Assembly: GCF_000231405.2 (NCBI RefSeq)
Contig: NZ_CP007032.1
Location: 3,100,001-3,164,000, forward strand
DNA length: 64,000 nt
DNA from: Desulfitobacterium metallireducens DSM 15288
GTDB taxonomy: Bacteria; Bacillota; Desulfitobacteriia; Desulfitobacteriales; Desulfitobacteriaceae
Direction: 5' to 3'
The notes under the pieces are model-generated. The model was not told where the DNA came from. It saw nothing but the letters and a program-made list of their open reading frames with translations, and did not search any database. A program made the position numbers and the translations under genes. This document shows, piece by piece, positions 3,110-60,931 of this stretch; the stretch's first letter is position 1; every line of letters starts with the position of its first letter.

Positions 3110-3586
3110 TTACTGTCCACATTCTTCTTTCCAAGATAGATGAATAAGCTTAAGCTCGGCCTCTTCTGCGAGTTGTTGTGCTAGAGCATCCGGATAGGGA
3201 TTGGCATAGATCACGCGTTTAATTCCTGCGTTAATGATCATCTTGGTACAGAGGACACAGGGTTGTGTGGTTGTATAGAGAATCGCTCCATCAATTTCCA
3301 CCCCGTGCTTAGCCGCCTGTACGAGTGCATTCTGCTCCGCATGAACCGCCCTGCAGATCTCTGTCCGTTCACCGGAAGGAATCTGCAGTTTTTGCCTTAA
3401 ACACCCAACTTCAGCACAATGTTTTAACCCTGTAGGGCTTCCATTATATCCCGTACTTAGAATCTGCTTATCCTTGACAATCACTGCCCCAACTTGACGA
3501 CGCAGACAGGTGGAGCGTTCTGAAACCACCTGCGCCATCTTCATGAAATAATCATCCCAACTTGGGCGCTTCTTTGGTGTGTCCAT
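3110..3586 (-). CDS. comEB: dCMP/cytidine deaminase family (ComEB-like)
   Basis: A 158-residue zinc-dependent deaminase. Zinc ligands His82 (in VHAEQNAL, with catalytic Glu84), Cys110 and Cys113 (PCVLCTKM) are all present. Family members convert dCMP to dUMP for dTMP synthesis; in Bacillus the gene sits in the competence operon and is called comEB. Here it directly follows upp, with the ATG overlapping the upp stop codon, so the context is pyrimidine salvage and not DNA uptake. Confidence 0.9.
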
Positions 3587-4215
3587 TATTTCGTTCCAAA
3601 GAGCCGATCTCCGGCATCCCCTAAGCCTGGTACAATATAACCATGGTAATTGAGCTTTTCATCCACCGCAGCTACGAAGATTTCCACATCATTATGTGCG
3701 GATCTTACTGCCTCGATTCCTTCTGGTGCAGCGATGAGACACATTAACTTAATGTTGCGAACTCCTCGCTCCTTCAAAAATGTAATTGCTGCTGATGCCG
3801 AACCCCCTGTTGCGAGCATTGGGTCAATTACAATCAGCTCTCGCTCCTCAATATCAGTTGGCAGTTTGCAATAATATTCTACAGGTTTGAGTGTTTCCGG
3901 ATCGCGATATAAGCCAATATGACCTACTTTCGCTGTCGGGATAAGTTTAAGCATGCCATCAACCATGCCTAATCCTGCACGTAGAATGGGAACCAGTCCA
4001 ACCTTTCGTCCCGCAATCACTTTCGTTTTCGTCGTGGCAACTGGAGTCTTCACCTCAATCTCTTCCAGCGGGAAGTCTCGAGTTACTTCATATGCCATAA
4101 GCATTGCAACTTCTTCAACAAGTTCGCGGAAGTCTTTCGATCCGGTTTCCTCATCTCGTATTAATGAAAGCTTATGTTGAATCAAGGGGTGATCAAGAAC
4201 GTGTACTTGTGCCAT
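3586..4215 (-). CDS. upp: Uracil phosphoribosyltransferase
   Basis: The 209-residue enzyme makes UMP from uracil and PRPP. The N-terminus [18 protein letters not shown], the PRPP loop [12 protein letters not shown] and the uracil-binding end [18 protein letters not shown] are family hallmarks. I chose ATG 4215 over an upstream in-frame TTG because only the shorter form matches homologue N-termini; the GGAG upstream is 13 bases away, so the ribosome site is weak. It lies between glyA and comEB, the conserved glyA-upp order. Confidence 0.97.
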
Positions 4216-12235: not shown

Positions 12236-12335
12236 TACTTTTAAAACACCTCGAAGTTTTAGAATTGAATTTGCTCAAAAAGCATACTAAACTATTGTTT
12301 CCAAACTTCGGGGAATAAATACTCATAAAAAAGAC

Positions 12336-12453
12336 CTGTTGCAAAATTGATGGTCATGTAGCTTTACGCACACCCGTTCACTCCTGTGCGTGAAACTACG
12401 CTTGAGGGTCTATTGGGAGGAAAAGAAAGGGGCTGTTACGTTGCAACAGCCCC
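12336..12453. repeat. Short inverted-repeat-bounded element with GTAG hairpin (copy A)
   Basis: Ends are CTGTTGCAA (12336-12344) and TTGCAACAG (12441-12449), inverted relative to each other. Inside is GTAG (12358-12361) opening a long hairpin (12358-12399) with loop containing CCGTTCACT (12374-12382). The right end doubles as the glpX terminator. It shares flanking motifs (ATGGTC.TGTAG, GGGTCT) with the element at 33029-33132. Confidence 0.6.
12429..12453 (-). terminator. Terminator after glpX
   Basis: A 9-bp stem (GGGGCTGTT/AACAGCCCC, loop 7) is followed on the minus strand by TTTCTTTTCC. It is embedded in the right end of the repeat element described at 12336-12453. Confidence 0.85.
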
Positions 12454-12467
12454 TGAGAAATTTCTTC

Positions 12468-30372: not shown

Positions 30373-30429
30373 AATCGTGTAGCTTCTCAACATCCGTTCA
30401 CTAATAGGTTCTTAGAAGCGGGTTCGATT
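30373..30429. repeat. GTAG-led hairpin element (copy C)
   Basis: AATCG (30373-30377) pairs with CGATT (30425-30429); GTAG is at 30379-30382. The inner stem GCTTCT/AGAAGC closes a loop with CCGTTCACT (30394-30402), identical to the loop of the element at 12358-12399 although the stems differ. It lies between the gdhA stop and its terminator. Confidence 0.55.
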
Positions 30430-30438
30430 ACTGTAAGC

Positions 30439-30482
30439 AAAAACGGCGGAAAAGATTCACTATGAATCCTTCCACCGTTTTT
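30439..30482. terminator. Bidirectional terminator gdhA / lysA
   Basis: A long imperfect hairpin (AAAAACGG...CCGTTTTT, with inner GATTCA/TGAATC) with T-runs in both directions serves the convergent genes gdhA and lysA. Confidence 0.9.
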
Positions 30483-30517: not shown

Positions 30518-31771
30518 TTAAAGTTTTGAGAAATCCAGAGTGGCAAAATAATCCTCAAGCGTCTCCGCTCGACGAATCATATCAACAGTTCCATCCTCTT
30601 TGAGAAGAAGTTCTGCTGAGCGAAGTTTGCCATTATAGTTGAAGCCCATAGCATGCCCATGCGCACCCGTATCATGAATCACGATAAGATCTCCCAGGTC
30701 AATGCGTGGAAGTTGCCGATCCACAGCAAATTTATCATTATTCTCGCATAGACTACCGGTTATATCATAGACATGATCCTTCGGCAAAGCTTCTTTTCCC
30801 ACGACTGTGACGTGATGATAGGCCCCATAAATACCCGGTCTCATTAAATCCACCATACACGTATCTAATCCAATGTAGTTTTTATAGATTTCTTTCTTAT
30901 GAAGAGCTCGTGTAACTAAGTACCCATAAGGTCCTGTAATCACCCGTCCACATTCCATGGCCAATTTAAGGGGATGTAAATTCTTTGAGGCAATCCGTTC
31001 CTCATAAGCTTTACGAACCCCTTCGCCAACATATTCGAGTTTAATGGGTTCTTGTTCTGGACGGTAAGGAATTCCTATTCCACCCCCAAAATTAACAAAT
31101 TCAATTTTTATTCCTAACTTTTCTTTGAGTTCAACAACGAGATCAAACATCATCTCTGCAGTCTCAATAAAATAATCCGGATTAAGTTCATTCGAGATCA
31201 CCATGGTATGCAGCCCAAAGCGCGTCACGCCCTTGTCCTGCACAATCTTGTATGCATGAAACAGTTGTTCTTTCGTCAACCCATACTTTGCATCTTCAGG
31301 AGTTCCTATAATGGAATTACCTCCTGATCTTAAGGGACCTGGATTATAGCGAAAAGAAATGAGATCAGGTATACCCGCTACTTTTTCTAAAAATTCGATA
31401 TGGGTAATATCATCTAGGTTAATAACCGCACCAATCTCTCTTGCCTTCATAAATTCCTCAGCAGGAGTGTCATTTGATGTAAACATGATATTTTCGCCGG
31501 TAATTCCACTCTTCTCTGCTAAGACCAGTTCTGCGAGAGAGCTACAATCCGCGCCAAAGCCTTCCTCGCGCAGAATCTTTAAAAGATACGGATTGGGTGT
31601 CGCCTTCACTGCAAAATACTCTTTGAATTCTGGCGCCCATGCAAAAGCTTGAGTTAAACGCCGAGCATTCTCGCGGATTGCTTTTTCATCATAAATATGA
31701 AAAGGAGTTCCATACTGGGATACAATTCTTTTTAATTTTTCCTGGCTAAAAGGTAATGTTTTATTGGCCAC
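30518..31771 (-). CDS. lysA: Diaminopimelate decarboxylase
   Basis: The 417-residue PLP enzyme performs the last step of lysine synthesis, decarboxylating meso-diaminopimelate. The PLP lysine is Lys56 in EYFAVKATPNPYLL; GRVITGPYGYLVTR and HDTGAHGHAMGFNYN are ODC/DapDC family motifs. The real start is GTG 31771, 8 bases after GGGAGG. An upstream in-frame ATG lies inside the leader and would translate the riboswitch terminator, so it is not used. Transcription is controlled by the lysine riboswitch upstream. Confidence 0.95.
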   Translation of the reverse strand: MANKTLPFSQEKLKRIVSQYGTPFHIYDEKAIRENARRLTQAFAWAPEFKEYFAVKATPNPYLLKILREEGFGADCSSLAELVLAEKSGITGENIMFTSNDTPAEEFMKAREIGAVINLDDITHIEFLEKVAGIPDLISFRYNPGPLRSGGNSIIGTPEDAKYGLTKEQLFHAYKIVQDKGVTRFGLHTMVISNELNPDYFIETAEMMFDLVVELKEKLGIKIEFVNFGGGIGIPYRPEQEPIKLEYVGEGVRKAYEERIASKNLHPLKLAMECGRVITGPYGYLVTRALHKKEIYKNYIGLDTCMVDLMRPGIYGAYHHVTVVGKEALPKDHVYDITGSLCENNDKFAVDRQLPRIDLGDLIVIHDTGAHGHAMGFNYNGKLRSAELLLKEDGTVDMIRRAETLEDYFATLDFSKL

Positions 31772-31822
31772 GATCCAATCCTCCCTTTTATCTTTGGTGA
31801 ATGGTTCGATTAAAATCCCCAT

Positions 31823-31857
31823 CAAAAAAGCGGTCACGAGTACACTCACAACCGCTT
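31823..31857 (-). terminator. Attenuator terminator of the lysA leader
   Basis: Stem AAGCGGT..ACCGCTT, extendable with G-T pairs to about 13 bp, followed by TTTTTT on the minus strand. It sits between the lysine aptamer and the lysA start, as the expression platform. Confidence 0.88.
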
Positions 31858-31889
31858 CAAAGGTAGAAGGATAATCCTCCACCCTTAAT

Positions 31890-32062
31890 GGACGAGATAG
31901 CACTCCACCAATTTCCGGTGACAGTCTTGCACTTTTTCACTGCAAGCCCAGCCTAAGATTCATTGCCCTGAACCTAGACTTCGGCGGGAATTCCTTTCCG
32001 TATTGGTCATTGTTTGGCTACCTCACAATACGTACTCTTTATTCACCGCACCTCTATCATTC
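31890..32062 (-). promoter_or_regulatory. Lysine riboswitch (L box)
   Basis: The minus strand carries the L-box landmarks in order: AGAGGTGCGG at the 5' end, GGAAAGGAATTCCCGCCGAAG in the middle with CGCCGAAG-type core, GGCTGGGCTTGCAGTG, and GACTGTCACCGGAAATTGG near the 3' end. It is followed by a terminator and then lysA. Established action of the class: bound lysine favours the terminator and lowers expression. Confidence 0.93.
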
Positions 32063-32126
32063 ACTTTTTTATTATCATCTATTATGCAACAGATTGAATC
32101 CTATGTCAACACAACACTCGCCTGAC

Positions 32127-33028: not shown

Positions 33029-33132
33029 GGTGCTGTCGCAAAACCTATGGTCGTGTAGTTTCGGGTCTTTTGCAATAGTCTATAATTATTTTGAGCACCG
33101 AAAAAGGGACTGTTTTGCGACAGTCCCTTTTT
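33029..33132. repeat. Short element with 12-bp terminal inverted repeats (copy B)
   Basis: CTGTCGCAAAAC (33033-33044) and GTTTTGCGACAG (33112-33123) are perfect inverted copies. A nested pair GGTGCT/AGCACC lies at 33029-33034 and 33094-33099. Between them are ATGGTCGTGTAG and GGGTCT, also present in the element at 12336, but the CCGTTCACT hairpin is missing, so this copy looks internally deleted. Its right end forms the ybaK/glnS terminator. Confidence 0.6.
33101..33132. terminator. Bidirectional terminator ybaK / glnS
   Basis: A 13-bp stem AAAAAGGGACTGT and its complement with 6-base loop and A/T tails on both sides, between the convergent genes. Confidence 0.9.
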
Positions 33133-56768: not shown

Positions 56769-56866
56769 TGGCGGGGATGCGTGCGAATCGAACACACCCC
56801 GGAACGTTCTACGTCCCGGCACGCGGATTTGAAGTCCGGGGGCAGCACCAGCCACCACTCATCCCC
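56769..56866 (-). tRNA. selC: tRNA-Sec (TCA)
   Basis: 98 bases with encoded CCA. The anticodon loop CTTCAAA gives TCA, the UGA-reading selenocysteine anticodon. The very long variable arm (CCGGGACGTAGAACGTTCCGG) and the extended acceptor stem, GGGGATGA opposite GCATCCCC, are typical of tRNA-Sec. It stands alone between a CBS-ACT gene and a CvpA gene. Confidence 0.97.
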
Positions 56867-60043: not shown

Positions 60044-60931
60044 CTACACTTTCTCGCGTACATTTTTGCCAAAGATCCCCGCAGGTTTAACGATAAGCAC
60101 AAGAATTAAGATTAAGAAAGCTGCGGCATCCCGCCACATTGAACCCCCTAGTCCCGAGACTAAGGTCTCTATCAACCCTAAAATTAATCCTCCAGCCATA
60201 GCTCCTGGAATAAGCCCGATCCCGCCTAGTACTGCGGCAATGAAGGCCTTTAAGCCTGGCATAACCCCCATTAGTGGATCGATTTGGTTAAAGTAAACAC
60301 CAAAAAGCACACCTGCTGCAGCGGCTAACCCCGAGCCAATAGCAAAAGTTGCGGAAATAGTATTATTCACGTTTATCCCCATGAGTAAAGCAGCATCCTG
60401 ATCAAGGGAAACAGCGCGCATTGCTTTACCCACTTTTGTATACCTCACTATGACCTGGAGAAGAACCATGAGAATAACCGAAGTCACAAGCATCACAACA
60501 TCACCGTATTTAAAAGAAATTCCTCCAATATTATAAATTGTCTCTGGTAAAACCGGAGGATAAGTTCTTACTTGGGGACCGAATAGAAGCATTCCCCCAT
60601 ATTCAAGGAAAAATGAAACGCCAATTGCCGTAATAAGGGCAGCAATCCTTGTGGAATTGCGTAAAGGTTTATAGGCAATGCGTTCAATCAAAACCCCGAG
60701 AATTGCAGAGCCCACCATGGATACTAAAAGCGAAGGAATAAACGACCAATGCAATTTAGTAATTGTAAACCAACCAATATAGGCCCCGATCATCAAAATA
60801 TCGCCATGTGCAAAGTTGATTAATTGAATAATTCCATAAACCATTGTATAGCCCAAAGCCATTAATGCATAAATACTTCCTAAGGAAATTCCGTTCACTA
60901 TAAGCTGAATGAATTGCTGAAAACTGACCAT
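60044..60931 (-). CDS. livH: Branched-chain amino acid ABC transporter permease LivH
   Basis: A 295-residue permease with eight or so hydrophobic segments. LivH motifs: GISLGSIYALMALGYTMVYG at the start, GVLIERIAYKPLRNS and GVMPGLKAFIAAVLGGIG. It is separated from livK by 153 bases containing a hairpin. Confidence 0.95.
   Translation of the reverse strand: MVSFQQFIQLIVNGISLGSIYALMALGYTMVYGIIQLINFAHGDILMIGAYIGWFTITKLHWSFIPSLLVSMVGSAILGVLIERIAYKPLRNSTRIAALITAIGVSFFLEYGGMLLFGPQVRTYPPVLPETIYNIGGISFKYGDVVMLVTSVILMVLLQVIVRYTKVGKAMRAVSLDQDAALLMGINVNNTISATFAIGSGLAAAAGVLFGVYFNQIDPLMGVMPGLKAFIAAVLGGIGLIPGAMAGGLILGLIETLVSGLGGSMWRDAAAFLILILVLIVKPAGIFGKNVREKV

Follow-up and report, generated by a model that had tools for sequence, protein, structure and literature searches.

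The bcr1-type repeats of the Bacillus cereus group are structured repeats of about 150 nt, dispersed within one lineage and endowed with traits of mobile elements. BOX elements of Streptococcus are dispersed and intergenic; an RNA fold has been predicted for them, their mobiliser has not been established, and their middle unit is optional, occurring from zero to several times (PMC3049150). REP sequences measure 20-40 bp, and the arrangement in which a gene is flanked by its own inverted repeats has been named TIRYT (PMC3733652). The repeat described here, whose intact unit of ~186 nt we call R1, is best read as an unreported, non-autonomous, dispersed structured element that in kind comes nearest to BOX. 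Both are dispersed, intergenic and modular with optional internal units, a likeness in kind and not a claim of sequence homology. R1 differs from BOX in its fixed core of ~186 nt with optional modules at several defined loops, in two-sided compensatory change on most of its pairs, and in having homologues in several families of one class. Set beside the bcr1-type repeats as generally described, R1 is likewise a dispersed structured repeat and spans several families. Like bacterial MITEs, R1 is non-autonomous, shows presence/absence between close genomes and in some copies of the source genome lies within GGGGCTGTCGCAAAA ends. Unlike MITEs, it shows no consistent target duplication, and most of its copies lack such ends, TIR-like ends being confined to a subset.

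The DNA analysed here is a stretch of 64,000 nt (the window). An earlier note on it had singled out two distant sites at which GTAG precedes a stem with an identical loop. Both motifs are indeed present there, GTAG at 12358 (site 1) and 30379 (site 2) and CCGTTCACT at 12374-12382 and 30394-30402 (letters as in the window), and their shared order exceeds chance, the pattern GTAGN{6,20}CCGTTCACT occurring 17 times in the 3,176,073-bp source genome against 0 for a reversed-pattern control. Comparison of loci revealed that the 25 nt from GTAG to CCGTTCACT represent just the left arm of a longer element. The small GTAG hairpin had been taken for the unit; the real one is ~190 nt long and accepts optional hairpin modules of ~60 nt. 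BLAST with one R1 copy gave at least 33 matches in the source genome. Fourteen complete copies from this genome align over ~200 columns, and their consensus fold comprises 47 pairs, 27 of which show double compensatory changes. The fold is an unbranched, long irregular rod with an outer stem of 16 bp and with CCGTTCACT / CGTTCACT as the basis of its internal loops. Across one such loop, CCGTTCACT faces its direct repeat, a second TCGTTCACT; what had been described as a hairpin loop is, in intact R1, one side of this internal loop opposite the second CGTTCACT. The apical loop is near-invariant (AACCTCnGGG...GTnAACC) and reads CGCCAAACCTCnGGGTAATACCTGA(A/T)GTGAACC in copies of the source genome. 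GTAG is present in the source genome and in Desulfitobacterium-type copies and absent from Desulfosporosinus-type and more distant ones, with GGCAGC, GGCGAC or TTTATT at its place in other genomes. End-to-end sizes in G012, which we take to be Desulfitobacterium dehalogenans, fall at 196 nt (29 copies within 195-198), 253-263 nt (18 copies), 319-324, 384 and 451 nt. This modularity follows 196 + n x ~60 nt, the extra ~60-nt hairpins sitting at fixed internal loops. One ~60-nt module of G012 is common to the source genome (L015), and one module carries a smaller hairpin nested inside.

A covariance model built from 13 copies of the source genome gave at least 35 matches in G000 (the source genome), at least 72 in G012, at least 9 in G016, at least 37 in G004 and at least 98 in G027 (presumably Desulfosporosinus youngiae), the bulk of them 184-187 nt long; two further genomes contributed at least 45 and at least 61. 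Further families within this order and class also have full-length copies, the genomes being G055, G064, G066, G068, G069, G074 (presumably Heliobacterium modesticaldum; at least 15) and G076 (at least 19), and no R1 was found in G002 and G053. Matches to the apical motif in a named scan came only from Desulfosporosinus, Paradesulfitobacterium, a Gracilibacter MAG and a Clostridiales MAG. R1 reaches about a hundred copies per genome, scattered across one bacterial class, and accounts for much of the intergenic 'noise' in the Desulfitobacterium and Desulfosporosinus genomes used in work on dechlorination and sulfate reduction. A phage or plasmid as vehicle was ruled out by 0 R1 matches in viral contigs, plasmids and phages. 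Rfam gave no credible match for R1 or for the neighbouring repeat R2 in the window, at seven loci of the source genome or at eight loci of G012 and G004, and the open literature searched makes no mention of R1-type repeats for Desulfitobacterium or Desulfosporosinus.

Over 80 copies, 93.8% of the cells are paired and 44 of 51 pairs have undergone two-sided change. Covariation in this set amounts to 0.396, compared with 0.161 after shuffling and at most 0.083 with partners slid; model-fitted alignments lean towards the model's structure, the slid controls nevertheless being far lower. In 17 copies from at least three families the value is 0.703 versus 0.210 shuffled, with two-sided change in 16 of 16 outer-stem pairs. 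The outer stems of distant copies share essentially no sequence (TTTATTCGTG, GGGCGACGGA, CGTAGCTTTT), and AACCTCnGGG...GTnAACC is retained. The description of identical loops on different stems is thus true of the R1 family and not of the two sites for which it was given. The earlier note had also suggested a covariance-model search of the genome and its relatives for copies with compensatory changes; such copies are many, and the change in them is massive. We regard the R1 family, its fold and its dispersal as established. An element of nearly free sequence that keeps its fold and two loop motifs from family to family implies a specific partner, and hundreds of natural R1 variants are at hand for testing what this partner reads.

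Among copies differing by less than 5%, one-sided changes number 57 and two-sided ones 6, whereas 74% of the changes are two-sided in copies differing by more than 30%, the pattern predicted by enforcement of pairing in the lineage that spreads. Single orthologous sites offer too few events, with 2 double versus 5 single changes in the one clean pair. Resident copies carry broken pairs and deletions, and pairing is restored between lineages. We infer that the structure of R1 is needed for making new copies more than for host function at each site.

Mispairs in R1 are strand-asymmetric. On the strand read in the earlier note, A.C mispairs outnumber G.T mispairs by 120 to 38 among mispaired cells, and the same asymmetry is seen by pair position (29 versus 8, p 7.5e-4; shuffled expectation 346:292). 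The best 28 copies of a second set, mostly from Desulfosporosinus, gave 56 versus 21; lower-scoring R1 relatives are free of this asymmetry (61 versus 56), and the corresponding counts for R2 are 27 versus 17. The unpaired letters of the reverse complement are 65% purine, and the internal loop GTTCAC/GTTCAC becomes GTGAAC/GTGAAC on that strand, where tandem G.A pairs are possible. Because of the mispair asymmetry and the purine-rich loops, the reverse complement is probably the folding strand of R1, as RNA or as single-stranded DNA. Folding energy was discarded as evidence on this point: the reverse complement is the stabler strand in 79 of 80 copies, but the difference is almost as large in shuffles (12.2 versus 10.0 kcal/mol); composition explains most of the energy difference, which therefore adds nothing to the choice of strand.

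The mispairs also bear on an origin of the covariation without selection, by template switching or arm-to-arm conversion in quasi-palindromes, with the copies as mere passengers of ordinary MITEs. Conversion should treat both strands alike, yet the mispairs are strand-asymmetric; it should perfect the arms, yet the apical motif and internal loops with specific mismatches are kept from family to family. The compensatory changes, nearly all of them Watson-Crick and few involving wobble, would fit such a process, and several copies of the source genome do lie inside a MITE with inverted repeats, but the scarcity of MITE ends in the family at large speaks against passengers. We consider this origin very improbable.

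Site 1 folds better than all of its shuffles (z -3.95; 0 of 200 equally good) and is matched by the covariance model with 38.7 bits (E 6e-9), 137 model positions being deleted. Window positions 12327-12383 align to copy L001 from the left and 12375-12455 from the right, with CGTTCACTC as the overlap; since the two matches meet there, the interior appears to have been lost between the direct repeats. On this sequence evidence, site 1 is an R1 copy collapsed at the direct repeat CGTTCACT, with the outer stem and one loop copy left. A compact form of 71-72 nt like site 1 was found twice in G012, and the short forms of R1 are, to judge from such alignments, deletion products. At site 2, the short hairpin is no better than shuffles (z -0.82; 40 of 200) and the R1 covariance model finds no match. 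The partial matches in Table 1 suggest that site 2 is probably an R1 left arm joined to part of R2, a junction that would imply loss of most of R2 and of the interior of R1. Its pairing combines GCTTCT of R1 with AGAAGC of an apparently different repeat, two unrelated pieces, and the two sites alone therefore give no proof of a kept structure. Of the two stems proposed to pair, that of site 1 is borne out and that of site 2 is not. Both sites are decayed deletion remnants of R1 rather than complete units, and they illustrate how a collapsed repeat can be mistaken for a small RNA hairpin. A third exact CCGTTCACT, at 60891-60899 (+) of the window, comes without GTAG and without a covariance-model match and is probably due to chance.

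Table 1. R1-related features in the window, with positions counted from its first letter.
Feature	Position	Strand	Evidence
Site 1: compact copy of R1 with just the outer stem	12356..12404	+ (strand of the earlier note; inferred folding strand -)	Covariance model and fold z
Putative deletion junction CCGTTCACTC: left loop repeat CCGTTCACT and right one TCGTTCACT merged into one copy	12374..12383	+	Match to L001 from both sides; full copies for comparison
MITE-like carrier of site 1: GACCTGTTGCAAAA left, terminator-like hairpin GGGGCTGTTACGTTGCAACAGCCCC (12429-12453) right	12333..12453	+	Common to copies L001 and L037
Site 2, first half: R1 left arm TCGTGTAGCTTCT...CCGTTCACT	30375..30402	+	96.6% over 29 nt to R1 copy L007/L027, E 8e-7
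Site 2, second half: probable 5' arm of R2	30411..30440	+	Weak: 83.9% over 31 nt to L019, just past the R1 of that copy, E 0.019
Minimal MITE of a related kind, both TIRs present, R1 cut down to its feet (GGTCGTGTAGTTTCGGGTC)	33029..33127	+	Apparently a deletion between TTTCG repeats

R1 copies are intergenic, and their orientation with respect to flanking genes is random (32 ++, 28 --, 11 -+, 9 +-). For 72 of 80 copies the nearest neighbour is found within the same genome; each lineage has therefore amplified its own version. Between purB and purC, R1 is present in G000 and G027 only, in differing contexts, and G008 has a shorter relative; the other resolved purB-purC spaces measure 19-283 nt and contain no R1 by eye, the unresolved one of G019 being left out. 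The copies at this position are apparently independent gains. The genomes G020, G021 and G023, which are ~95% identical, differ in occupancy at several of ten sites tested. The differences amount to 277 nt (clean), 281 nt, 412 nt with a flanking 13-bp direct repeat, and a 657-nt composite. Such a repeat, a candidate target duplication, occurs at this one site, the others having none; owing to this inconsistency some presence/absence cases may be deletions, and the ancestral state at differing sites is assignable in part only. Taken with this reservation, R1 is likely to be mobile.

Random orientation and the lack of conserved sites between close species speak against a dispersed functional RNA, whose transcribed fold would serve the host as a 3' UTR stabiliser, attenuator, RNase target or protein sponge and whose copies would be kept as useful. 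Resident copies that gather one-sided changes and deletions argue in the same direction. Such a role would nevertheless explain the very deep conservation of the apical loop, the strong covariation, the wobble tolerance and purine richness of one strand, and the location of some copies within operons (purB-purC) or near terminators; we regard it as rather unlikely.

Our preferred explanation, which we think probable, is that the two sites in the window are decayed copies of a large element, dispersed and non-autonomous, that spreads as follows. The reverse-complement strand of R1, as RNA or single-stranded DNA, would fold into a long irregular rod composed of a 16-bp outer stem with nearly free letters, symmetric purine-rich internal loops (GTGAAC facing GTGAAC), further stems and an apex that on this strand would present the near-invariant GGTTnAC...CCCnGAGGTT. 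Apical and internal-loop motifs are probably recognised by a putative trans-acting factor, and copies would spread through a mobilising activity supplied in trans. Lineages giving rise to new copies would need the pairing; individual resident sites would not. No transposase, relaxase or reverse transcriptase could be tied to R1. An autonomous version with a coding insert, sought in G012 as far-apart left and right ends, did not turn up there, the only large end pair (3709 nt) being two neighbouring elements joined. Orientation bias between replichores was not significant in any of four genomes (p 0.06 in G012; origin assumed at position 1), which counts against a lagging-strand single-stranded-DNA mechanism, and an IS608-like transposon of this kind was rejected on the same ground. 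R1 might move at the RNA level, a transcribed RNA of ~190 nt being copied back to DNA, or as a single strand captured by a new kind of recombinase that reads the apical loop. We rate this as distinctly unlikely; if true, R1 would be for bacteria what a SINE is elsewhere, and would need neither terminal inverted repeats nor a linked transposase.

The initial interpretation, in which a RAYT/TIRT tyrosine transposase acts on REP-like sequences, did not survive the comparison. R1 resembles the REP/RAYT-TIRYT systems (PMC3733652, PMC8266576) as a high-copy extragenic hairpin with GTAG at its foot in the source genome and in Desulfitobacterium-type copies, and several R1-bearing relatives encode RAYT-like Y1 proteins (mostly ~180-280 aa). 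It is unlike REP in the length of its unit, several times the 20-40 bp of REP sequences (PMC3733652), in the restricted occurrence of GTAG and in having no associated Y1 gene. The source genome gave no Y1_Tnp match, control genomes being positive, and neither did the R1-bearing G016 and the copy-rich G025; G012 possesses only short IS200-type or broken Y1 genes. A Y1 gene flanked by the same motif, which the earlier note had advised looking for, was found neither in the source genome nor among 14 Y1-transposase loci of relatives (108 kb), which contain 0 R1 matches even at E 1. The Y1 gene of L173 is flanked by an unrelated inverted repeat of the GGGACAGG type. Unit size, the non-conserved GTAG and the lack of an R1-flanked Y1 gene rule out REP/RAYT for practical purposes, and we hold it extremely improbable. 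At 3060-4075 of L173 lies a RAYT/TIRYT-like gene (3207-3974; 255 aa) between its own 35-nt inverted repeats GGGACAAGGGGACAGG, the TIRYT arrangement. Repeats of the GGGACAGG type similar to those of L173 also occur near the Y1 gene of L174.

R1 is frequently accompanied by other repeats. In 29 of 40 copies (G012, G004, G016) its right-hand neighbour is R2 (~212-300 nt), oriented the same way; R2 covaries at 14 of 54 pairs. Among R2 copies (L019, L027, L028; L096-L156 right of R1), complementary blocks are swapped, TCGGG/CCCGA versus AAAGG/CCTTT, and the outer parts of R2 resemble an inverted R1 that has diverged. R1 in Desulfosporosinus is often followed, 150-200 nt away, by a divergent R1 relative that points the other way. 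The MITE family that includes the minimal member of the window (33029-33127; L078-L094) has the GGGGCTGTCGCAAAA inverted repeats, its right end being a terminator-like palindrome GGGGCTGTTTTGCGACAGCCCC; its ends occur at 17 sites in the genome within one mismatch, some of which carry R1. A small hairpin module CATGCCGC..GCGGCACCATCAGAGGATGAAAA recurs beside R1 in G020 and G027 on the flank opposite R2. Since a hybrid hairpin module is left where the 657-nt composite is absent, this module may mediate recombination. A clean insertion of ~1.24 kb carried by Desulfosporosinus hippei relative to strain HMP52 (L218:1799-3041 versus L242:6575-6576) is unrelated to R1. The Rfam matches inside the window belong to features other than R1 and R2, among them a lysine riboswitch at 31890-32064 (-), which lies upstream of a gene (30518-31903), and at 56773-56866 (-) a selenocysteine tRNA.
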